Source of the DNA: Saprospiraceae bacterium
GTDB taxonomy: Bacteria; Bacteroidota; Bacteroidia; Chitinophagales; Saprospiraceae
Reading direction: 5' to 3'
DNA: 64,000 bases
Assembly: GCA_013140975.1 (NCBI GenBank)
Contig: JABFRV010000041.1
Coordinates: 1 to 64,000, forward strand
The notes under the pieces were generated by a model. It saw only the letters and a list, made by a program, of their open reading frames with translations. It was not told where the DNA came from and did no database searches. This document shows, piece after piece, positions 1 to 54,178 of this stretch. The stretch's first letter is position 1. Every line of letters begins with the position of its first letter. Position numbers and translations under genes: made by a program.

Positions 1-1669
1 AAATTGGCCTTAATCCATACAAAGAAGAACGAAACGCTATGCCAGAATCAAAAGGTTCATTTTTTTTAGCCCGTGAATTTATCAATGAATCCAATTTACT
101 TTCTTCAAACAATTCTAAAATATAAGGATTCTCTGAATTGCCGCTTGCAACTAAAGCCATATAAACTTGAGTTGTTACAAATCTTTTATTGACTATTTTT
201 TCGCGATTAAATTTGTAGAAATTAACAGCTATTTCATGCTTTCCAAGCGTTTTTTTAACTTTATTAAATGAAGATTCCGCATTTTTGGATGTTCGACTTC
301 GAGCAAAGCTAATTCCTTTGCTTTGCAAAGAAAAATCAAATAACCACTTTAAGTATTTGGGCTGATCAATAAAAAGGCTGCTATAATTAAATAAAATATT
401 ATACTTTTTAGTATCATAGTTGATTAAATAATTTATTTTTTCTTCTTCTGTTAAATCTTGCAGATTTATTTCAGACCTTTCTAGCAAAGAAATTAAACTA
501 TCAATACACTTTAATGCAAGTACTTTATCAGTTTTACTATATTGAGAAAGCAAGAAACTCAATAATACTGAATATTCACTACCCATAATATTTTCATCTA
601 CAGAATACTTATTTATAAACGCTTCAAGTCTTACAAATAAATTGTTGATATGAACTTCACTTGCGGCCAATTGCAAAATCTCCAAACGAGTCAAAAGTAC
701 CAAAGTATTGAATCTTAAATAATTATTTAAATCTACATTATTTTCATTATGTATATAACGATTTAGATGAATCTCTAGGATTTGACAAATACTATCTGCA
801 ACTGTATATTTCTTACACAATACTAAGTTAGCTGCATAAAACTGTAAAATTTGAAAATGATATAATGTTAATTGCTCTGACTCAGATAAAATATTTAACG
901 CTACGCTATTCAAAAATAAATCAGCTGAATCGTACTTGAACAAATTATTATATAACCAACCTTGATCATATAATAATTTAAATCGATTGGATTTACTAGA
1001 ATTATCAATATGCAATAAACGAGTATTGCTCTTTAACGCTTTCTCATATTGCTTCAATAATGAATTAAAATATACTGAATATTGCAAGTGATATTGATAT
1101 TCTTTACTAAAAGAATCCAACTGAAGCACAATTGAGTCCGCTAATTCTTGAAAACTTTTAGCTTCTCTAAATTTATTTAGTCTATAATATAATTCTGAAG
1201 ATGCATCATAACACTTCAGGATAAATTTAACATGATTCTTAGATTTAACTTTATGAATAAGACTATCAAGCAATGATGTGGCCTGACTATAATTTTGCGA
1301 ATAAATAAGTGATCTGGAAAGAACAATATCCGCTTCGAGATTTATTGAATCCGCTTCATGACTTGCAATAAAATAATTACTCTTATATTCATCCAATAAT
1401 CTAACAACACTGCCAAAATTACCGGCATAAAATAGTTTGTTTGCTGCTCCAACAATTATTCGTTCAAATGTTGATTGCTCCCATAATAATTTCTCCGCTC
1501 TAATAAGTTCATAGGCGCTGTTTGAATTCTCTAACAATTTTATCTTTAACATGATACTTAAACTATCACATTCTTTAGATGATAGTTTTTTCTTATTCAA
1601 ATTAAGTTCTTGCGCACCAAGATTTAAAGTGAATATTATAAGCAGGCATCCAATTAAGCTTAATTTCAT
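1..1669 (-). CDS. Exported TPR-CHAT domain protein, C-terminus outside window
   Basis: The reading frame is open from an ATG at 1669 down to the window edge (556 codons, no stop), so the protein is truncated here. It starts with a signal peptide (MKLSLIGCLLIIFTLNLGAQ). About 400 helical residues with tyrosine/leucine/alanine spacing typical of degenerate TPRs follow. The last ~130 residues match the beginning of a CHAT domain: GKHEIAVNFYKF, then a strand VYMALVASG and LFEESKLLDSLI. CHAT is a clan CD (caspase-like) protease fold; its catalytic His and Cys would lie beyond position 1, so activity cannot be judged. The gene is last in a leftward run after ECF sigma, TPR membrane protein and M48 peptidase, 146 nt after the M48 stop. 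Unlike those genes it lacks a CTGATAACA element and has a TAnnTTTG box instead. The CHAT call is confident; proteolytic activity is inferred. Confidence 0.8.
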   Translation of the reverse strand, partial: MKLSLIGCLLIIFTLNLGAQELNLNKKKLSSKECDSLSIMLKIKLLENSNSAYELIRAEKLLWEQSTFERIIVGAANKLFYAGNFGSVVRLLDEYKSNYFIASHEADSINLEADIVLSRSLIYSQNYSQATSLLDSLIHKVKSKNHVKFILKCYDASSELYYRLNKFREAKSFQELADSIVLQLDSFSKEYQYHLQYSVYFNSLLKQYEKALKSNTRLLHIDNSSKSNRFKLLYDQGWLYNNLFKYDSADLFLNSVALNILSESEQLTLYHFQILQFYAANLVLCKKYTVADSICQILEIHLNRYIHNENNVDLNNYLRFNTLVLLTRLEILQLAASEVHINNLFVRLEAFINKYSVDENIMGSEYSVLLSFLLSQYSKTDKVLALKCIDSLISLLERSEINLQDLTEEEKINYLINYDTKKYNILFNYSSLFIDQPKYLKWLFDFSLQSKGISFARSRTSKNAESSFNKVKKTLGKHEIAVNFYKFNREKIVNKRFVTTQVYMALVASGNSENPYILELFEESKLDSLINSRAKKNEPFDSGIAFRSSLYGLRPI

Positions 1670-1815: not shown

Positions 1816-3339
1816 TTAATACTTAACATATTCAGTTACTACATTTTTGGCGTCAATCAGAACTGCATAACGATCCATTTCACAATGGTATACAGATCCT
1901 CCCGTAATTAATAGGTTTGAACGGACTTTCTTAAGGTTTGAATTTTTAACTTTCCATGAACCATATATGCGTTGCATATTCAATTTATAAGTGGGAGTTT
2001 TTACGCTATAAATTGTAGATTGCGATAACTTTATAATACTAATCTCAATTTTTTCTTTCTCATTCAGAGTTATATATTTTTCTTGAGGCTGCCACTTCTG
2101 CAATCGAACTCCGTCTATAGTTTTAGAAGCCTCAGGAAATTTAAAACACGATTCCTGAGAAGGATTGACCGGCAGGTTATCCATTACTTTTAAATTATAT
2201 GCAGCCTGTTCGGCAAAAACCGAAGAAGAAGTTTGAGAAATATCATTCCAGATTTTTTTAGAATTATCTTTTTGTCCGGCACCTTCATATGCCAATGCCA
2301 GAATAAGTCGCAGCTGTTCCTTTTCCTTATTATCAGCAACAAATAAATTACTCTTCTTAATCAATTCATTGGTTCTATAATAATCTAATGCTTCCAGAAA
2401 CTGTCCTTTAAGTACAAATACTGTCATGATATTCAAATTGGTTGTAAACATTTCCGGATCAATAACACTTGCCTCAATAAGATTTTTTTCAGAATTTGAA
2501 AGGTATTCCTGACGCAACAACATCTCGGGTTTGCTCAACAAGTCTCCTCTGGCTAGAGAAGGCTTTTTCAATCGGGTATTCCACTCCAGTTCTAATGGAT
2601 AAACGAAAGCATCAGCATTTTTTGAAGTAAAATTCAATGCCAGGTAAGCATAATTTACTCCAAGATTATTATAAATCTCTCTTCCTTTATACCACTTATT
2701 AATAAATTCATAGCAATATACTGCAAGTTGATATTTGCCAATTGCGGTAAAATAATTCCCTGCTTCATATACATGAATCAATTCTTCAATCATTCTTTTG
2801 ACTTTGGCAGCTGTTTTCTTTCTTTCTTCAAGACTTGGATATCCGTATAATTTTTCTTCCAGATCAAACTCTTTATAAATATCTTCAATCAAAGGTTCGA
2901 TAATTTCCAATGTCTTATAATTGGCTAAGTAAGCTAAAAATCCACCGCTGACATCAGCTTCCTCTTCATGCGAAATGGAAGAATTCTCTGCACTTGAATA
3001 CGCCAAAAAACTGGTTTCTTTGGCTTTCAGATCTTTTTGAAATGCGTGTGAGAGTTCATGCCCAAGAACAAATGCGAGTGCTGAAGAAGAATCCTTACCA
3101 TATTTTCTGCAAGCTTGTAGAAGCTTTTCACTAATTTCAATTGAATTTTTTGTTCTTCTGTACAGTGCAGCATTTCGATCGTCATTAGTAATAACTACTT
3201 TCGGTTTAAGGATAATCTTATTCCCATTTTGCTTGTAAAGCTTATCCAAAACCTTTTGAGCAGCTGCGGATTCCTGTGCACAAACAAATGCCGGTATCCC
3301 TAAGAGGAGTACCGGCAATATTTTAATGAATTTAAGCAT
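1816..3339 (-). CDS. Exported M48-family zinc metallopeptidase with TPR-like C-terminal region
   Basis: 507 residues with a signal peptide (residues 1-22, cleavage after FVCAQ). The zinc site GHELSHAF gives His94, Glu95 and His98. The third ligand is probably Glu127 in HEEEADVSGG, the EADxxG pattern of M48/Oma1/BepA-like peptidases. After the catalytic domain, residues ~190-380 are helical and TPR-like, as in BepA; the last ~100 residues look beta-rich. This implies a soluble periplasmic protease or chaperone. The gene follows the TPR/anti-sigma-like gene by 65 nt and has its own CTGATAACA element 46 nt upstream of the ATG. Family assignment is firm; the substrate is unknown. The neighbouring exported TPR proteins and the anti-sigma-like protein are possible targets, by inference. 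Confidence 0.85.
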   Translation of the reverse strand: MLKFIKILPVLLLGIPAFVCAQESAAAQKVLDKLYKQNGNKIILKPKVVITNDDRNAALYRRTKNSIEISEKLLQACRKYGKDSSSALAFVLGHELSHAFQKDLKAKETSFLAYSSAENSSISHEEEADVSGGFLAYLANYKTLEIIEPLIEDIYKEFDLEEKLYGYPSLEERKKTAAKVKRMIEELIHVYEAGNYFTAIGKYQLAVYCYEFINKWYKGREIYNNLGVNYAYLALNFTSKNADAFVYPLELEWNTRLKKPSLARGDLLSKPEMLLRQEYLSNSEKNLIEASVIDPEMFTTNLNIMTVFVLKGQFLEALDYYRTNELIKKSNLFVADNKEKEQLRLILALAYEGAGQKDNSKKIWNDISQTSSSVFAEQAAYNLKVMDNLPVNPSQESCFKFPEASKTIDGVRLQKWQPQEKYITLNEKEKIEISIIKLSQSTIYSVKTPTYKLNMQRIYGSWKVKNSNLKKVRSNLLITGGSVYHCEMDRYAVLIDAKNVVTEYVKY

Positions 3340-3385: not shown

Positions 3386-3394
3386 TGTTATCAG
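3386..3394 (-). promoter_or_regulatory. CTGATAACA element upstream of the M48 peptidase gene
   Basis: The minus strand reads CTGATAACA, then 15 nt, then AATCC. It lies 46 nt upstream of the ATG at 3339. The same 9-mer with the same AAT spacing precedes the TPR, sigma factor and caspase genes. It is interpreted as the -35-like element of a promoter used by the local ECF sigma factor. Confidence 0.6.
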
Positions 3395-3404
3395 ATTGAT
3401 TCAA

Positions 3405-4226
3405 TTATTTTTTCAAAAGATCTAAGTAAGCTTTCGCATTCTCGTAATATTTAGATCCGGAGTCCGAAGCCAGTTCCTGTAACAAGAATCTAGCAGTATC
3501 AAGATCATGCTCAGTCTGGAACTGTGTGTAACACATCGCTGCATACCACTTTGCAAGATCACGGTCTTCTTTTTCAGCGATTCTGGTTAAAGGAGTAAGA
3601 TACTTTGCACCTTTGGCATATTTACCTTCGTGAACATAAGAGATACCAAGATAAAGCTGTGCTGTATTATCATCCGGATAGCTATTTAAATATTGAAGAA
3701 GAGCCATTCTTGCTTTTACATACTCATCTTGCTTTACAAGTAAAAGTGCGAAAGCCAGTGAATCCTTCTTGCCTTTTTCCTTATCACCCAAGCCAGGAAC
3801 AGACAGATCTTCTATTGTCGCTACCAGGTGACGATTCTCAAGTTTCAAATCCGCAACATTCGGCAAAGGATAGTTATCCGAAGGCCATAAAATAAATACA
3901 CTCACAACTAATATTGCTGCAATACTTGCTGCAATTGCCCAATCCTTTGACCTTTCTGTTTTCTTAATGAAAGGCCTGACAATGCTTTGATTCTCATTAA
4001 AGAATCCTTGTGATTCCAGCTTGCCTTCAACATTAAGAATAGTATTTCTGATTCTTTGATTTCCAAATCTCTCAATGTGCTCAATGATATTGTTGTACGT
4101 TTTTAAATCATTGGCGAGAGTTGAATCCTGATTCATCTTCTTTTCAAATTGTTCTTTGGCTTGCTGATCTAATTCATTGAATTTCCACGCTTCTATGCGA
4201 TCTAAATTGTTCCATGTATTTTTCAT
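3405..4226 (-). CDS. Single-pass membrane TPR protein with anti-sigma-like N-terminus
   Basis: 273 residues. The first ~90 residues are charged and helical (ELDQQAKEQFEKKMNQDS, then LANDL), resembling the FExxLxxDxxLxxE pattern seen in cytoplasmic heads of Bacteroidota anti-sigma/TPR proteins; there are no zinc-binding cysteines. One hydrophobic segment (about 96-114) follows, and residues ~150-273 form about three TPR units (KARMALLQYLNSYPDD, AQLYLGISYVHEGKYAKGA). The predicted topology is a cytoplasmic head and periplasmic TPR tail. The gene starts 40 nt after the sigma-factor stop, the usual position for a cognate anti-sigma factor. Its CTGATAACA element lies inside the last codons of the sigma gene. 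The anti-sigma role is inferred from position, topology and the N-terminal pattern, not from a defined zinc anti-sigma domain. Confidence 0.75.
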   Translation of the reverse strand: MKNTWNNLDRIEAWKFNELDQQAKEQFEKKMNQDSTLANDLKTYNNIIEHIERFGNQRIRNTILNVEGKLESQGFFNENQSIVRPFIKKTERSKDWAIAASIAAILVVSVFILWPSDNYPLPNVADLKLENRHLVATIEDLSVPGLGDKEKGKKDSLAFALLLVKQDEYVKARMALLQYLNSYPDDNTAQLYLGISYVHEGKYAKGAKYLTPLTRIAEKEDRDLAKWYAAMCYTQFQTEHDLDTARFLLQELASDSGSKYYENAKAYLDLLKK

Positions 4227-4266
4227 ATTATTTAATAATTTAATTTGTTATTTATTTATTTCAAAA

Positions 4267-4815
4267 TCATTCGTTTGTTATCAGTTCACGTAAAGAATTC
4301 ATACATCTGTTTTTCTTAACGCGGATAAAACCTTGTGTATAGCCCATGATATCTGCTACTTTTCCCAATGGAACATTGTAGTAATAGAAATTCATAATAA
4401 TTTCTTTACATTCTTTTCCTATATTTTCCAATGCACGTTCCATTTTAGAAAATTGCAATTCCTTATCTTCAGGATTATTATCATCCTGTGCATCTCTCCA
4501 ATCAAAATCGGATTCGCCGATTTCAACTGTTTCAGTCGTTTTGTTTTTTACCAAGGAAGCGAGCCACTTATTCTGTGCAATTGACATAATATAAGTACTT
4601 AACTTCGTTCCACTGTACAACTCAAATTCCGGATTACGGACATTCTTAACAAGAGCAATAAGCACCTCCTGAAAGAGATCTCTTGCTGATTCTTTGGTTC
4701 CGCTATTATTTAGCACATACTTTAGAACCATAGGGTAATACTCCTGGTATAATTCCTCAAAAGCCCATTCTTCATTGAGCTTCAAGGCCGTCATAAAATT
4801 TTCGCTAGGTTTCAT
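4267..4815 (-). CDS. ECF-type RNA polymerase sigma factor
   Basis: 182 residues, the usual size for an extracytoplasmic-function sigma-70. Region 2 is visible at ~18-85 (FEELYQEYYPMVLKYVL, then ESARDLFQEVLIALVKN and KLSTYIMSIAQNKWLA). Region 4 is at ~125-180 (ALENIGKECKEIIMNFYY, then LGKVADIMGYTQGFIRVKK, NRCMNSLREL). There is no region 3. It is the first gene of the leftward run and its stop is 40 nt before the TPR membrane protein. A CTGATAACA element sits 45 nt upstream of its ATG and another faces the divergent caspase gene, which suggests autoregulation of a small regulon. The sigma-factor identity is clear; the regulon is inferred from the repeated motif. Confidence 0.9.
   Translation of the reverse strand: MKPSENFMTALKLNEEWAFEELYQEYYPMVLKYVLNNSGTKESARDLFQEVLIALVKNVRNPEFELYSGTKLSTYIMSIAQNKWLASLVKNKTTETVEIGESDFDWRDAQDDNNPEDKELQFSKMERALENIGKECKEIIMNFYYYNVPLGKVADIMGYTQGFIRVKKNRCMNSLRELITNE
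4276..4284 (-). promoter_or_regulatory. CTGATAACA element upstream of the TPR membrane-protein gene
   Basis: The minus strand reads CTGATAACA, 49 nt before the ATG at 4226, followed after 15 nt by AATAA. It overlaps the last codons (Leu-Ile-Thr) of the sigma-factor gene, so coding constraint could explain the sequence. Its spacing nevertheless matches the other three copies. Confidence 0.45.
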
Positions 4816-4860
4816 ACATTAATTTTTTTGGTACATTGATGAATTCAACTATTTCCCTAA

Positions 4861-4869
4861 TGTTATCAG
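4861..4869 (-). promoter_or_regulatory. CTGATAACA element upstream of the ECF sigma-factor gene
   Basis: The minus strand reads CTGATAACA, 45 nt before the ATG at 4815, followed after 15 nt by AATTC. It is one of four copies, each oriented toward its downstream gene, and fits an autoregulated ECF promoter. Confidence 0.6.
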
Positions 4870-4978
4870 GTATTATACATTTTTTGTAAATTTACTGAAA
4901 TTTATTAGTTTTAACCTGATTCTAAAATGACAGTTTCAACTCTTATTAATACTAAATTTATTAAATTCCCTTTATTGG

Positions 4979-4987
4979 CTGATAACA
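4979..4987 (+). promoter_or_regulatory. CTGATAACA element upstream of the caspase gene
   Basis: The plus strand reads CTGATAACA, 41 nt before the ATG at 5029, followed after 15 nt by AATAC. It is the only copy on the plus strand and ties the divergent caspase gene to the same putative regulon. A second short match (ACCTGAT at 4914-4920, inverted relative to 4865-4871) also lies in this divergent region. Confidence 0.6.
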
Positions 4988-5028: not shown

Positions 5029-6978
5029 ATGCGCAACTATTTTACTTATTTATTATGCTTTTTCGCACTTTCAAATAGTTTTGTAAAAGGGCAATCAAAA
5101 ACCCATGTTCTACTTACCGGCATTGGCTCATATCCTTCGAATTCAGATTGGCATAAACTATCTTCCGCCAACGATCTCGATTTATTACAATTAAGTCTAG
5201 TAGATTTTGGAATTCCCAAGAGTCAAATTACGATAAAAAAAGATGCAGAAGTAACGCATGCAAACTTATTGACATCCATAGAATCAGATTTACTCAACAA
5301 AGTAAGTCCAGGTGATTTTGCTTATTTTCACTTTTCAGGTCATGGACAGCAGATCCGCGACAAGAACAATGATGAAGTAGATGGCCTTGACGAAGCGCTG
5401 GTACCCTATGATTCTCCCAAATTTTTCAATAAAGGCATATACGAAGGAGAAAGACTTGTGACAGATGATGAATTGCATATGTTATTTTCGAGAATTAGAA
5501 AAAAGCTTGGTCCGGAAGGAAGATTACTCGTTTGTATTGATGCCTGTCATTCTGGATCTGCGACTCGAGGAAACAATCAGGATAAACTTAATTCAAGGGG
5601 AACACATATAATAATGGCGGATGCATTTGATATGCTGCCTATAATCAATAATCAGGAAAATTCTAATGTGGATAATATTAATTCTGATAATCCCCAACTT
5701 GCTCCTCAAATTAATTTCTACAGTTCAAGCCCACATCAATTAAGCTACGAGTATAAGGACAAGAATAATAAATCATACGGTCTTTTTTCTTATGCTTTCT
5801 GCAAATCACTTTATGAATTAAATAACGACGATAATTATAAAACACTTTGGGACAAACTTTCATTATTTATCTCCTATCAGACTTCGATTCAAACTCCTTA
5901 TGCTGAAGGAAGGATCAATGAAAAAGTTTTTGGAAAGTTGGTTAGAACGCAAAACCGATATTTCACACTTAAAAAAATTCTAGCCCCGAATCTTCTTATC
6001 CTTGGAGCCGGAGCATTGCAGGGAATAACAGAAGGAAGTAAAGTTGGCATTTATGAATTAAAGGACAGACATTATGCTAAACCCATTGCAACTGCAATAG
6101 TAGATGGAGTTGACATTTTTACTTCTGATATTACACTGTCAAAAAAATGGAAAGCAAAAAACCTCAGTAAATACAAGGTCAAAGTTATCGAACACCAGAC
6201 CGCCGAACTAATAATCAAACTCAAGCTTGACTCTGATATAAAATATGAAAGTATCATATCAAAAAAATTGATTGAGAACCCAATTATTACTCTAGAAAAG
6301 AATAATTATGATCTGCAATTATTAATACGGGAAAATGCTCCTGATTCTATACAAATCTTAATTAATTCTCCCGATGGTTTCACTTTATATGATAATTTTT
6401 TAAACAATATACAAGAACTGGAAGATGATATTTTTTATCAGATCGATGAGTGCATATCAAAATTTGCCAGAGCCAACAATCTTCGGAAGCTAAACACTCC
6501 GGATAATTTTTTTGGCGCAGAAATTGAATTATATATACGTGATTCAACCGGAAAATTTAATATTTCAGAAACTAAAGTATTACACACCAACCAAAAAGCC
6601 AAGATTAAAATTCATAATCGAGGGAAAGAAGTATTTTATTTTTCTCTTTTCGATATTAGCCCTAACTCAGAAATAGAAAAACTCATTCCGAGAGAAAAAG
6701 CTGCAATCGATTATAGCCTAAGCCCGGATAGCACATATCTAAGTGATTCCTTTGAAGTCAGCCCTCCGTATGGAACGGATGTATTAAAACTTATCTGCAC
6801 CAAAGAACCCATAGAATTTAATGCTCCGGTACGTGGAAAAAATTCTGAAAGCAATAACCCTATTCAGAAATTAATAAGAACACTGTATTTACCTGGAATG
6901 GAAACACGGGGATTAAAGCCAAGCCTTTCTACCGACCAGGGGTATATTGGGTCGTTTACGTTTATTGTAAAGGAATAA
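5029..6978 (+). CDS. Exported caspase-family (C14) protein with DUF4384-like C-terminal region
   Basis: 649 residues with a signal peptide ending near residue 22 (FVKGQ). The peptidase C14 domain spans ~25-310: the catalytic His is His105 in FHFSGHGQQI and the catalytic Cys is Cys173 in VCIDACHSGS, both intact. The middle (~320-500) is of unknown fold. The C-terminal ~130 residues (IELYIRDSTGKF, FYFSLFDISP, FEVSPPYGTDVLKL) resemble DUF4384, often fused to bacterial caspase homologues. The gene diverges from the sigma/TPR/M48/CHAT run and carries the same CTGATAACA element, so it is probably co-regulated. The acidic tract after the His loop (DKNNDEVDGLDEAL) may bind calcium, as in metacaspases; this is inference. 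Export is unusual for a cell-death effector and points to a role in the envelope. Confidence 0.88.
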   Translation: MRNYFTYLLCFFALSNSFVKGQSKTHVLLTGIGSYPSNSDWHKLSSANDLDLLQLSLVDFGIPKSQITIKKDAEVTHANLLTSIESDLLNKVSPGDFAYFHFSGHGQQIRDKNNDEVDGLDEALVPYDSPKFFNKGIYEGERLVTDDELHMLFSRIRKKLGPEGRLLVCIDACHSGSATRGNNQDKLNSRGTHIIMADAFDMLPIINNQENSNVDNINSDNPQLAPQINFYSSSPHQLSYEYKDKNNKSYGLFSYAFCKSLYELNNDDNYKTLWDKLSLFISYQTSIQTPYAEGRINEKVFGKLVRTQNRYFTLKKILAPNLLILGAGALQGITEGSKVGIYELKDRHYAKPIATAIVDGVDIFTSDITLSKKWKAKNLSKYKVKVIEHQTAELIIKLKLDSDIKYESIISKKLIENPIITLEKNNYDLQLLIRENAPDSIQILINSPDGFTLYDNFLNNIQELEDDIFYQIDECISKFARANNLRKLNTPDNFFGAEIELYIRDSTGKFNISETKVLHTNQKAKIKIHNRGKEVFYFSLFDISPNSEIEKLIPREKAAIDYSLSPDSTYLSDSFEVSPPYGTDVLKLICTKEPIEFNAPVRGKNSESNNPIQKLIRTLYLPGMETRGLKPSLSTDQGYIGSFTFIVKE

Positions 6979-18379: not shown

Positions 18380-20353
18380 CTATAATTTCAGAAATTTCGT
18401 AGTTCCTTGTTCGCTGGTTATAAAATAAATTCCAGGTCTTAAATCTGAAACATCAATCCTTGATTTCCCTTCGATCAATTCAATCGATCTAATAACTTTA
18501 CCAAGGGAATTGAATATCGGTAATTTTGATACATTTGAATTGCTTGAAATAACATAAAGGAAATCATGAACAGGATTGGGGAAACAATTCAAAGTGCTTA
18601 TCTTTTCATATTCTTGAATACCTGTTATCACACCGTCACATCTTTTATTACTTAAAGCAGAATCTAGCTTTGCAAAATCGCAGCCTATATCTTTACCCTC
18701 AGTTGCTAAAGATGCATATACACTGGAATCGCTTAAACTATAATTATGATAGTCGGATTTACCCTGTGCATAATTTAAAAATCGAACATTTATAATACTT
18801 GCTGGAAAGTAATTTTTACTTATCGTGTTATAATTAGAATATCTCATACTGTTATCACCAACAAAAACGTTTTTATGAATTCTTAATGAGGCATCGGTAA
18901 TATCCGGAAAGTATCGGGCTATTGTTGCATTACCATGTTGAACTCCAGGACCATAAATACCCTGATAGCCTGCAGCATTCGGAAAGCTGAATGCTAGATT
19001 ATTGGTATATTGAAAACCGGGAACTTTTTTACCGGCCCAAGTTATTGGGCCTGTTTGCAAAAATGTGTTATGATCAATAATTACATCTTGCGGCTCTCCC
19101 AATTTAATGATTGTACCATCGTTTGGTCCATTGACATTTTGATCTCCGTAAAGTGGTCCACTTATATCTTCAAATAAATTGTTGTAAATATGAATTCTCT
19201 TAGAAATAATTCCAACACCATCATCTGAACCTGATAAACTTATTCCTGCTCCGCAACGTCGAATAATGTTATTACTGATAGTAATATCACTTACATCAGA
19301 ATTAGGAGCTGCCCCATTTTCTGTTCGCACTGTTAATAATATCGCATATCCACTTTGCCCGATCGGAAGATCAGCCCAGGAATTCTCAAGAATGTTTCCA
19401 TCAAACAATACTCTTTTTCCATTTTTGAGTTCAAACAAATTTTTAATAGTCCAAAGCTTGCCGGCATACGTTGGATGATCAACACGCCAATGTAAGGGTT
19501 TGAAAAAATGATTATTGCGAATTACAATATCAGAAGGAATGTTATCAGGAATTCCACTTGCACCACCACCAAAAAAAACATTTTCTCCGGATGCTTCTAA
19601 ATAATTATTCAATATCCAAAAAGGTCCGGGTCCATTAATTCCTGCAATGGCCTGTGCATCGAATCCTATACTGTGAAAATCCGAAACATCACTATCAACA
19701 ACCGCACCATATGCACAGTCCAGTCTTACACCAAATTTCATAATTGTTCCCTTACTATGTCCATGAATATAACATCTGTCAAATATTATATGATGTGGTG
19801 CTTTATCTACTGTATTTTGTTTGTTAGTAATATCGCCTACGTGTATGAGTCCAAAACTTTGCAACACACGTTCATCAGCAGTAAATTCTATTCCAACGAA
19901 ACGATAATGATGCGCCTTGTTTAAAGCCGTCATACATGGAATCCCTGCAAGATTCGTCGTTACAATTTTTGGCATTGCAGATTTTTGATTTGGAAAATTT
20001 GTATTCAGAGTTGAAGACAATGGCTTAACTCTTATTCCTTCTTTTGGCAACAAATCCATTCGAGATGAAATTACAATAATCCATCCCTGTCCTTGTTTTT
20101 CAGGCAAAGTAAATCCACCAACAAATGTCTCTCCGGCATCCAGAACCAATACAGTCGCTAAGGGAACTAAATTTATCGCAGTCTGAAGATCAGAAAAGTC
20201 CCTTCCAACCGGTCCAACTGTCTTATAAGAATATCCGGAAGTATCCGGAAAGCAGCTATTGAAATTGTTCATCCTCGGAAGCTCCGGTAATTGCTGAGCC
20301 TTTATGAAGAATAAACTTAGTAGAAGTATAAGGGAAGTTGAAAAACGTATCAT
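18380..20353 (-). CDS. Secreted parallel beta-helix protein with type IX sorting domain
   Basis: 657 residues, signal peptide at the N-terminus (LLSLFFIKAQ). Residues ~40-560 show the repeated strand-turn pattern of right-handed beta-helix (pectate-lyase-like) proteins: HYRFVGIEFTA, HHIIFDRCYIHGHS, DIVIRNNHFFKP, VLFDGNILENSW, DITISNNIIRRCG, IHIYNNLFEDISG, DVIIDHNTFLQTG. The last ~75 residues are a Por sorting domain (LNCFPNPVHDFLYV ... GIYFITSEQG). It is probably a surface or released polysaccharide-binding or -cleaving protein; no catalytic residues can be assigned. With the adjacent esterase-like gene it forms a convergent pair of likely glycan-acting proteins. Confidence 0.8.
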   Translation of the reverse strand: MIRFSTSLILLLSLFFIKAQQLPELPRMNNFNSCFPDTSGYSYKTVGPVGRDFSDLQTAINLVPLATVLVLDAGETFVGGFTLPEKQGQGWIIVISSRMDLLPKEGIRVKPLSSTLNTNFPNQKSAMPKIVTTNLAGIPCMTALNKAHHYRFVGIEFTADERVLQSFGLIHVGDITNKQNTVDKAPHHIIFDRCYIHGHSKGTIMKFGVRLDCAYGAVVDSDVSDFHSIGFDAQAIAGINGPGPFWILNNYLEASGENVFFGGGASGIPDNIPSDIVIRNNHFFKPLHWRVDHPTYAGKLWTIKNLFELKNGKRVLFDGNILENSWADLPIGQSGYAILLTVRTENGAAPNSDVSDITISNNIIRRCGAGISLSGSDDGVGIISKRIHIYNNLFEDISGPLYGDQNVNGPNDGTIIKLGEPQDVIIDHNTFLQTGPITWAGKKVPGFQYTNNLAFSFPNAAGYQGIYGPGVQHGNATIARYFPDITDASLRIHKNVFVGDNSMRYSNYNTISKNYFPASIINVRFLNYAQGKSDYHNYSLSDSSVYASLATEGKDIGCDFAKLDSALSNKRCDGVITGIQEYEKISTLNCFPNPVHDFLYVISSNSNVSKLPIFNSLGKVIRSIELIEGKSRIDVSDLRPGIYFITSEQGTTKFLKL

Positions 20354-35263: not shown

Positions 35264-36493
35264 ATGAAAGTCCTCCAACTGTGTAAAAAGTTTCCTTACC
35301 CTCTTCAAGATGGTGAGTCAATAGCTATTCAACATATATCTAAATCTTTAGCAGATATGGGTTGTGAATTGAGTATGCTAACAATGAATACCAAAAAGCA
35401 CTATTATCAAGCTTTAGGTGATAATATACCTGAAGAACTTAAACATTATAAAGAAATTCATACAGTAGATATTGATAATACGATTAAGAAATGGGATGCT
35501 TTCAAGAATCTGTTTTCTAAGGAATCTTATCATATCAGCAGATTTCAATCTGATGAATTCGCTTCCAAATTGTTAGAATTACTTCAGAATAATAATTATG
35601 ATATCATTCAGATGGAGACTCTATATCTCGCTCCATACTATGAACTCATAAAAGCGAATTCCAATGCTATCCTGGTCATGCGTGCTCATAATATAGAACA
35701 TGAGATCTGGGATAGAATTACGGAACAGATTGATTTTACTCCTAAGAAATTATACCTTTCTTACCTGGCGAAAAAACTGAAAAAATTTGAAGTTGAAAGA
35801 CTCAACAAATACGATTTTCTAATCGCGATTACAGAAAGAGACCTAGATCGTTTTAAATCCTTAGGCTATAAAAATGGTTGCATGGCATTACCGGTAGGAT
35901 TTGATCTTGGTAAATATGAACCGGAATATTCAGCATTTCAGAGACCATTATCACTGTCTTTTATTGGATCATTAGATTGGATGCCCAATACTGAAGGATT
36001 AAATTGGTTCCTCGATGAAGTATGGCCTAAACTTAAACTTAAGCATCCTGATATAGAATTTCATTTTGCAGGAAGAAATGCACCAAGCGAATTGAAAAAC
36101 ATCAGAATTAATGGTGTACATTATCATGATGATGTAGTAGATGCGAAAAATTTTATGCTTCAATATCCTATAAGCATTGTTCCATTATTTGCCGGATCCG
36201 GAATTAAAGTAAAAATATTGGAAGCATTGGCTTTAGGACGTGTCGTTATAAGCAGTTCAATAGGTCTTGAAGGAATTCCTGCCAAGCATATGAAACAGGT
36301 AATAATTGCCAATTCAATTGAGGATTATATTGAAAGTATAGATTGGTGTTATCAAAATCATTCACAATTACAAAAAGTCGGAGAGAGCGCAAGAAATTTT
36401 CTAAAATCCAATTTCAATAATGACAAACTTGCCGGCAAACTTGTGAACGCCTATCAAAAATTAAGCAATACTCACGGGCACAAAATGAATTAG
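35264..36493 (+). CDS. Glycosyltransferase, GT4/GT1-like (GT-B fold)
   Basis: 409 residues. The N-terminus MKVLQLCKKFPYPLQDGESI and AIQHISKSLADMGCELSMLT is the usual glycosyltransferase-4-like acceptor domain. The C-terminal nucleotide-sugar domain shows LSFIGSLDWMPNTEGLNWFL, FHFAGRNAP, SIVPLFAGSGIKVKILEALA and GRVVISSSIGLEGI, a GT-B donor-site pattern. It is cytoplasmic, possibly membrane-associated. The GT2 gene starts 6 nt after its stop, so the pair probably act on one exopolysaccharide or glycoconjugate. Donor and acceptor cannot be told. Confidence 0.9.
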   Translation: MKVLQLCKKFPYPLQDGESIAIQHISKSLADMGCELSMLTMNTKKHYYQALGDNIPEELKHYKEIHTVDIDNTIKKWDAFKNLFSKESYHISRFQSDEFASKLLELLQNNNYDIIQMETLYLAPYYELIKANSNAILVMRAHNIEHEIWDRITEQIDFTPKKLYLSYLAKKLKKFEVERLNKYDFLIAITERDLDRFKSLGYKNGCMALPVGFDLGKYEPEYSAFQRPLSLSFIGSLDWMPNTEGLNWFLDEVWPKLKLKHPDIEFHFAGRNAPSELKNIRINGVHYHDDVVDAKNFMLQYPISIVPLFAGSGIKVKILEALALGRVVISSSIGLEGIPAKHMKQVIIANSIEDYIESIDWCYQNHSQLQKVGESARNFLKSNFNNDKLAGKLVNAYQKLSNTHGHKMN

Positions 36494-53140: not shown

Positions 53141-53566
53141 TTAAATGGATATTTGATTCTTCCCGGATTTCAGTTGTTTATCAAAATAATTTTTCAAAAG
53201 AGGAATTTGAATAAAAAACATTATTGTCGTAAGCACCACCGCATAGGTTGCTACAGACGAAAAATCGAATAATCCGGTAAGATTATCCTTATAGTTTGAT
53301 AGATACTCATTTTTACTAAACCAACCTTTAGTCTGGGATTGAGTATTAAGGATCAGGTATAGAATAAAAGAAAAAATGCAAGTGAAAATTGCAATAAAAC
53401 CTGAATTTGAAATCAAGGGCTTGTAAACAGTGATATCGCTAGTTTTCGTTGCCAAAACCTGAGACATCACTTTTGAAGTAAAATCATCTGCGGGAGATTC
53501 CAATGAAGCTCCTCTCATTATATTGTGGACTAATTTTTCCAGGTCTTTATCTTCGTTCGCTTTCAT
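53141..53566 (-). CDS. Putative membrane anti-sigma factor
   Basis: 141 residues. A charged N-terminal head (~1-45: DLEKLVHNIMRGASLESPAD, DFTSKVMSQVLA) precedes two transmembrane helices (~55-73, GFIAIFTCIFSFILYLIL; ~100-122, ATYAVVLTTIMFFIQIPL). It overlaps the end of the ECF sigma gene by 20 nt, the usual arrangement of sigma/anti-sigma pairs. No zinc-finger motif is present. The role is inferred from size, topology and overlap. Confidence 0.65.
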   Translation of the reverse strand: MKANEDKDLEKLVHNIMRGASLESPADDFTSKVMSQVLATKTSDITVYKPLISNSGFIAIFTCIFSFILYLILNTQSQTKGWFSKNEYLSNYKDNLTGLFDFSSVATYAVVLTTIMFFIQIPLLKNYFDKQLKSGKNQISI

Positions 53567-54140
53567 AATATTCTAATATTTCTGGCTCCAATCGGTTTTT
53601 CAATATTGAAGTCAATTTTATTTTGCTTCTAAATAATCTCACTTTAACATAGTTTGGAGTAATTCCGATAATCTTTGAAATTTCCTCCAGGGATTGTTCT
53701 TCAAAATAAAACAAAGTTAATAAAAATCCATCTTCTTCCGGTAATAAGCGGATACAATCCTGAATTGTATCCGTTCGTTCTTTTTCGCTGATGGAATCCA
53801 AAACATTTCCTATTGCTTCCATTTTACTCTCTGACCAATCATCCAGAGGAATCGCCTCATGCTCCTTTTTATATTTTTTTATCCGATCTAAGCAAGTATT
53901 GTAATTCACTTTGTAAATCCAGGTCGAAAATTTTGATTCGCCTTTAAACTTATTTAAAGATTGATATACTTTGACAAAGGTATCCTGGGCGGCTTCTTCT
54001 GCCTCTTCCGGTCTCTTCAGCATCTTTACACTTAGTGTATACACCATATCCTTATATCTATCTACCAGGATTGCAAATGCCTTTGCATCACCTCCGACAA
54101 TGAGATTTATATAATGTTGATCTTCTATTATTTGGCTCAC
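53547..54140 (-). CDS. ECF-type RNA polymerase sigma factor (second)
   Basis: 197 residues starting at GTG (54140). Region 2: DAKAFAILVDRYKDMVYTLS, RPEEAEEAAQDTFVKVYQSL and KFSTWIYKVNYNTCLDRIKK. Region 4: IRLLPEEDGFLLTLFYFEEQ, SLEEISKIIGITPNYVKVRL. This is a standard SigW/RpoE-like ECF. A TGTAACC-N16-CGTC promoter lies directly upstream, and the mirror-image promoter drives the divergent DUF6249-like gene, indicating autoregulation. No ATG occurs in the first 38 residues, so the GTG is accepted. It overlaps the membrane anti-sigma gene by 20 nt. Confidence 0.93.
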   Translation of the reverse strand: MSQIIEDQHYINLIVGGDAKAFAILVDRYKDMVYTLSVKMLKRPEEAEEAAQDTFVKVYQSLNKFKGESKFSTWIYKVNYNTCLDRIKKYKKEHEAIPLDDWSESKMEAIGNVLDSISEKERTDTIQDCIRLLPEEDGFLLTLFYFEEQSLEEISKIIGITPNYVKVRLFRSKIKLTSILKNRLEPEILEYYESERR

Positions 54141-54151
54141 CAGTTATATTG

Positions 54152-54178
54152 GACGACAAGTTAATGAATTCGGTTACA
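54152..54178 (-). promoter_or_regulatory. ECF-type promoter of the second sigma operon
   Basis: On the minus strand TGTAACC (54178-54172) and CGTC (54155-54152) are separated by 16 nt, matching classical ECF -35 (AAC) and -10 (CGTC) elements. The start codon at 54140 would give a leader of only a few bases. Confidence 0.75.

Follow-up and report, generated by a model that had tools for sequence, protein, structure and literature searches.

The closest described systems are SigW-RsiW of Bacillus subtilis and AlgU-MucA, in which an ECF sigma factor is encoded beside a membrane protein with a cytosolic helical domain and is autoregulated from a -35/-10 promoter with an AAC-type -35; the SigW-RsiW promoter reads TGAAAC-N16-CGTA. 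The locus described here resembles both in these respects, and the geometry of SigW promoters equals that of its putative TGATAAC/GnAATnnA promoter. Unlike SigW-RsiW and AlgU-MucA, however, it combines a -35 of TGATAAC, a -10 of GnAATnnA and a TPR sensor part with apparently separate promoters for the sigma factor, anti-sigma-like, M48 and caspase genes, and with a predicted protease-rich regulon. In the Bacteroidetes, ECF promoters with a -10 CGT box have been described in Flavobacterium psychrophilum SM6, where they precede T9SS targets and a sigma/anti-sigma pair (PMC9723704). The promoter class proposed here was likewise derived from sequence, but the SM6 type is resembled by the promoter of a second ECF sigma factor in our window (TGTAACC...CGTC) rather than by TGATAAC. 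This second locus comprises a sigma gene at 53547-54140(-), followed by a gene for a small membrane protein at 53141-53566(-), and two divergent TGTAACC...CGTC sites at 54178(-) and 54211(+), which are of the type more usual for Bacteroidetes ECF promoters.

Caspase-like proteases have been found next to sigma factors before. In the accessible portions of two reports, metacaspase operons of Myxococcus xanthus carry sigma-70 genes (PMC3501461) and EACC2-caspase neighbourhoods contain ECF sigma and TPR genes (PMC8195603); unlike the present cassette, the cases as presented there come with no defined promoter or regulon and no mention of an M48 partner. The mostly open-access literature yielded no description of TGATAAC as an ECF motif, of the cassette, of the regulon or of the apparent anti-sigma factor. 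The promoter itself is ordinary in kind, and what is noteworthy is the protease-rich regulon together with a conserved candidate anti-sigma factor. Only 6% of Bacteroidetes ECFs have a recognised class I anti-sigma neighbour, against 32% overall (PMC7406223), and the cassette gives a Bacteroidetes ECF a conserved candidate partner together with a defined promoter and a regulon that can be tested. Caspases are numerous in a related bacterium, Haliscomenobacter hydrossis, for which 28 homologues are reported (PMC3501461). With two to three caspase-like proteases under one predicted switch, bacterial caspase function becomes testable by turning a single sigma factor on or off.

Proteins of the cassette

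The genome under study (G000) comprises 3.97 Mb in 196 contigs, and the window, meaning the whole 64,000-nucleotide stretch analysed, covers positions 1-64000 of contig C139. Its ECF sigma factor (182 aa; 4267..4815, minus strand) matches Pfam Sigma70_r2 and NCBIfam sigma70-ECF and has only sigma2 and sigma4 domains, as expected of an ECF factor, with the Pfam sigma4 match falling below the curated cut-off; the nearest solved relative is B. subtilis SigW. The adjacent TPR protein (273 aa; 3405..4226, minus strand) consists of an N-terminal helical domain, a transmembrane helix at about residues 96-113 and a C-terminal TPR region. Its structure model (pLDDT 86) places the helical domain next to a single transmembrane helix, the layout of class I anti-sigma factors. 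When the N-terminal domain was compared with the PDB using Foldseek, the sole match at E<=10 was MucA of AlgU-MucA, a weak one (E 8.7, TM 0.51/0.60, Z 5.4), and the full-length model retrieved TPR-type folds only. The zf-HC2 model was weakly matched by 7 of 36 homologues. Taken together with the modelled layout, these matches hint at an anti-sigma role for the TPR protein, which we treat as a candidate. Some TPR proteins of this kind have longer N-termini with apparently two tandem anti-sigma-like units (L214:4975-6018, L138:1283-2323, L225:4098-5126, L222:4909-5814 and L212:5304-6221).

The remaining genes of the island encode an M48-like metallopeptidase (507 aa; 1816..3339, minus strand; Pfam Peptidase_M48, 1.8e-05), a caspase-domain protein (649 aa; 5029..6978, plus strand; Pfam Peptidase_C14, 5.5e-18) and a product that looks TPR/CHAT-like by eye (2..1669, minus strand), which has no Pfam match and is truncated at the contig end. 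Both peptidases appear by eye to carry signal peptides, and the caspase-domain protein contains the His-Cys dyad of caspase-like enzymes, within SGHG and DACHSG.

Promoter-like sites in the island and the genome

The first-pass annotation had proposed that four genes of the island share a private promoter motif, CTGATAACA followed after 15 nt by AAT. Its positional claims hold throughout: exact copies lie at 3386-3394(-), 4276-4284(-), 4861-4869(-) and 4979-4987(+), each points toward its own gene, AAT follows after exactly 15 nt at all four, and the distances to the starts of the M48, TPR, sigma and caspase genes are 46, 49, 45 and 41 nt (ATGs at 3339(-), 4226(-), 4815(-) and 5029(+)). As putative -35 elements they are paired with the -10 sequences GAATCCA (M48), AAATAAA (TPR), GAATTCA (sigma, at about 4840-4846) and TTAATACA (caspase). 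Upstream of the fifth gene (2..1669), no site with up to two mismatches and a fitting -10 was present. One further exact CTGATAACA occurs in the window at 19540(-), within a coding frame and without AAT. Since copies of CTGATAACA with one mismatch are as frequent in the window as in shuffled sequence (20 versus 19.9), the case stands on the two-part pattern and its clustering; that such clustering exceeds chance, as had been claimed, is borne out by a probability of about 3e-12 for four sites in 1602 bp, computed from the density of the other seven exact CTGATAACA-N15-AAT sites in G000.

The copy at 4276 had been noted to lie within coding sequence, which is true of its -35, located in the last sigma codons (LIT), but not of its -10, which falls just past the stop codon. 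The codons CTG ATA ACA are identical in G000 and in two relatives, G044 and G152, whereas codon agreement for identical residues across the three sigma factors is about 52% overall. Beyond these codons the C-termini diverge (NE, F and IEH), but the -10, at or past the stop, remains equally far from the -35. Codon identity and a -10 kept beyond the coding sequence favour a real promoter within the gene end, and we disfavour mere coding sequence on the same grounds.

Genome-wide, CTGATAACA-N15-AAT is found 11 times in G000 and never in its backwards-read form (68 versus 31 for CTGATAACA alone), and among 67 CTGATAACA sites the offset of AAT peaks at 15 (11 sites, against a mean of 3.5 at other offsets). 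Likewise, TGATAAC-N15-GAAT occurs 19 times, compared with 3 and 5 for spacers one and two nucleotides longer. Of the originally proposed 9-mer, the TGATAAC part stands; the leading C is variable and lies outside the core, and we therefore rejected CTGATAACA as the core. A logo of 43 sites reads [CG]TGATAAC[AC]T, with G at +21, S at +22, A at 24, T at 25, A at 28 and a purine at +35, the last only a hint of the transcription start. The refined putative signal is TGATAAC-N17-AT-N2-A, with a -10 extending to roughly GnAATnnA about 16 bp from the -35. Two elements at this fixed spacing, with an AAC core in the -35, are what an ECF promoter is expected to have, as is a site before the sigma factor's own gene that is kept in orthologues. 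In the logo the flank preceding TGATAAC is blank and the -10 that follows it is conserved, a layout that speaks against an unseen upstream element; TGATAAC as a -10 with such a -35 was rejected for this reason.

The refined pattern (TGATAACM-N16-ATNNA) has 32 sites in G000 against 4 for its mirror image, so the motif is commoner than at random positions; equal frequency would, according to the first-pass annotation, have refuted its proposal. Fifteen of the 32 sites precede a gene, the island's four included. The base before the motif is mostly C or G at gene-preceding sites and mostly A or T at intragenic ones; a match in the window at 36326(-) is preceded by T. Five of the seven exact two-part sites outside the island are intergenic and oriented to a gene. 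The motif is thus not private, as it also precedes about 11 other genes. These include genes for a caspase-TPR protein (C138:46391), a matrixin-like metalloprotease (C48:26714), a C39/C70-like cysteine protease (C143:5100), a C13/C14-like peptidase (C16:18167), a PLD-like protein (C194:4711), an outer-membrane-like protein (C196:304) and a small secreted protein (C55:11292); a weaker site (C45:30141) lies 284 nt from the start of a gene without a Pfam match. The predicted distant targets are mostly secreted or envelope proteins, many of them proteases.

Conservation within the Saprospiraceae

The closest named relatives are Saprospiraceae MAGs, the 78% sigma match being isolate SJ486. The related species G044, whose sigma factor is 78% identical, keeps all four island sites at equivalent places, including the sigma site (ATGATAAC...TAATTCA) and that before the M48 orthologue (GTGATAAC...CAATTAA). 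In G152 (sigma 63% identical) the caspase site, shared with G044, and the TPR site are present, and the sigma site deviates (TGGTAAC-N16-GAAT, with a -10 read as GAATC); a C39-like gene adjoining this cassette has no site upstream. Searching the pattern independently in G000 and G044 identified nine orthologous gene pairs with a site, four from the cassette and five at remote loci (caspase-TPR, matrixin-like metalloprotease, C39/C70-like cysteine protease, outer-membrane-like and small secreted proteins). These make up 9 of the 15 genes preceded by an intergenic site in G000 and 9 of the 13 in G044. Sharing five remote genes by chance has a probability of about 3e-11, assuming about 3000 genes per genome. 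Across the nine pairs, TGATAAC agrees at 63/63 positions, AT at 18/18 and A at 9/9, and spacer identity is about 33%; because the pattern search itself selects for the motif columns, the evidence free of such selection is that genes are shared and that spacers have drifted. The G152 genome also contains a second, distant cassette (L152, C22) with its own sigma factor, TPR protein, two M48-like and two caspase-like genes, and G044 has a transposase-like ORF downstream of M48, where G000 has the TPR/CHAT-like gene.

A profile of 17 sigma factors detected relatives at E<=1e-30 in 216 of 398 Saprospiraceae genomes. Among 61 sampled loci the order sigma factor, TPR membrane protein, M48 peptidase recurs, often with a caspase added, and an M48 homologue was present in 49 of the sampled sigma loci. 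In the 120 nt before 61 sigma genes, TGATAAC is the commonest 7-mer (26/61); it precedes 11 of 237 control ORFs from the same loci (P 1e-12), and no shuffle exceeds 7. Exact TGATAAC within 150 nt is absent from half of the sigma upstream regions. The upstream comparison suggested by the first-pass annotation thus finds conservation both in G044 and before sigma genes across the family. Mapped on the sigma tree, the motif is spread over both deep branches of the M48-cassette clade; of 18 sister ECF genes, none is preceded by it. Site numbers follow the cassette as well, with 146 sites against 77 mirror sites in cassette-bearing genomes and 40 against 53 in cassette-free ones (P 2e-4). Since G000, G044 and G152 taken together show a ninefold excess, and genomes outside this genus a modest one (110/73), the large predicted regulon may be a feature of the genus.

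About ten genomes have TGATAAC so close to the sigma ATG, with its end a nearly constant 20-25 nt upstream, that the -10 overlaps the start codon (L137, L138, L143, L147, L207, L214, L215, L220, L240 and L149). Transcripts from such a promoter would begin within the sigma gene and, lacking its start, could not be translated into the sigma factor. These promoters would serve only the TPR protein and M48, amounting to inhibitor-only feedback, or the element may do something else in these genomes.

A predicted protease circuit and its alternatives

We consider it very probable that the ECF sigma factor at 4267-4815 reads the motif as its promoter, within an autoregulated, envelope-released circuit driving a mainly secreted multi-protease regulon. 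That the sites are the -35 and -10 of the local sigma factor, as originally proposed, is supported by the comparison of genomes, and recognition is inferred from co-occurrence. In this circuit the adjacent TPR protein probably retains the sigma factor at the membrane through a cytosolic anti-sigma-like domain, with one transmembrane helix and a periplasmic TPR part. An envelope signal would free it, and RNA polymerase with the freed sigma factor would transcribe the sigma, apparent anti-sigma, M48 and caspase genes, each from its own promoter, together with about 11 distant genes, including those for the second caspase and the C13/C14-like, C39/C70-like and matrixin-like proteases. Many products of the predicted regulon carry signal peptides, as judged by eye, and are therefore most naturally read as part of an envelope response. 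If the predicted recognition is true, one stress circuit would turn on a set of proteases; a role in lysis or cell death is speculation.

Among the alternatives, chance repetition in an AT-rich genome, with the 4276 copy as ordinary coding sequence, could appeal to the chance-level abundance of one-mismatch CTGATAACA copies in the window and to the coding position of that copy. It has next to no probability given the 11 versus 0 count, the improbable cluster, the four sites kept in G044 and the family-wide enrichment, and we rejected it as refuted by conservation. Alternatively, an ordinary DNA-binding regulator could use TGATAAC as its operator, with the downstream AAT incidental. This would suit the ten or so genomes that have the site directly next to the sigma start codon, an awkward place for a promoter. 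We regard the operator reading as improbable, as the site is non-palindromic, directed toward genes, at a fixed distance from a second conserved element and blank in its upstream flank, and no second regulator gene was recognised in the cassette. The sites could also form a genuine ECF promoter that is read by a paralogous sigma factor, or by several with overlapping specificity. These genomes do encode several related ECF factors, and other bacteria have ECF factors whose regulons overlap, as discussed in PMC9723704. Against this reading, the site stands before this sigma factor's own gene throughout the family, is absent before sister ECFs, and its genome-wide excess follows the cassette, which leaves a similarly small chance.

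The local sigma factor thus remains the preferred reader of the motif. A broader proposal is more tentative, and we lean against it in full: a Saprospiraceae-wide ECF circuit with a TPR anti-sigma factor that would command a mostly secreted multi-protease response, possibly for lysis or envelope self-proteolysis, and in which the sigma factor would drive only its inhibitor and M48 in some lineages. Extra, near-identical sites (CTGATAACCATT...GCGGTATAAA) occur in two further related genomes, G058 (C174:11690 and C184:1744) and G159 (C113:52418 and 53508), some of them near the cassette and with a variant -10, GGTATAAA.
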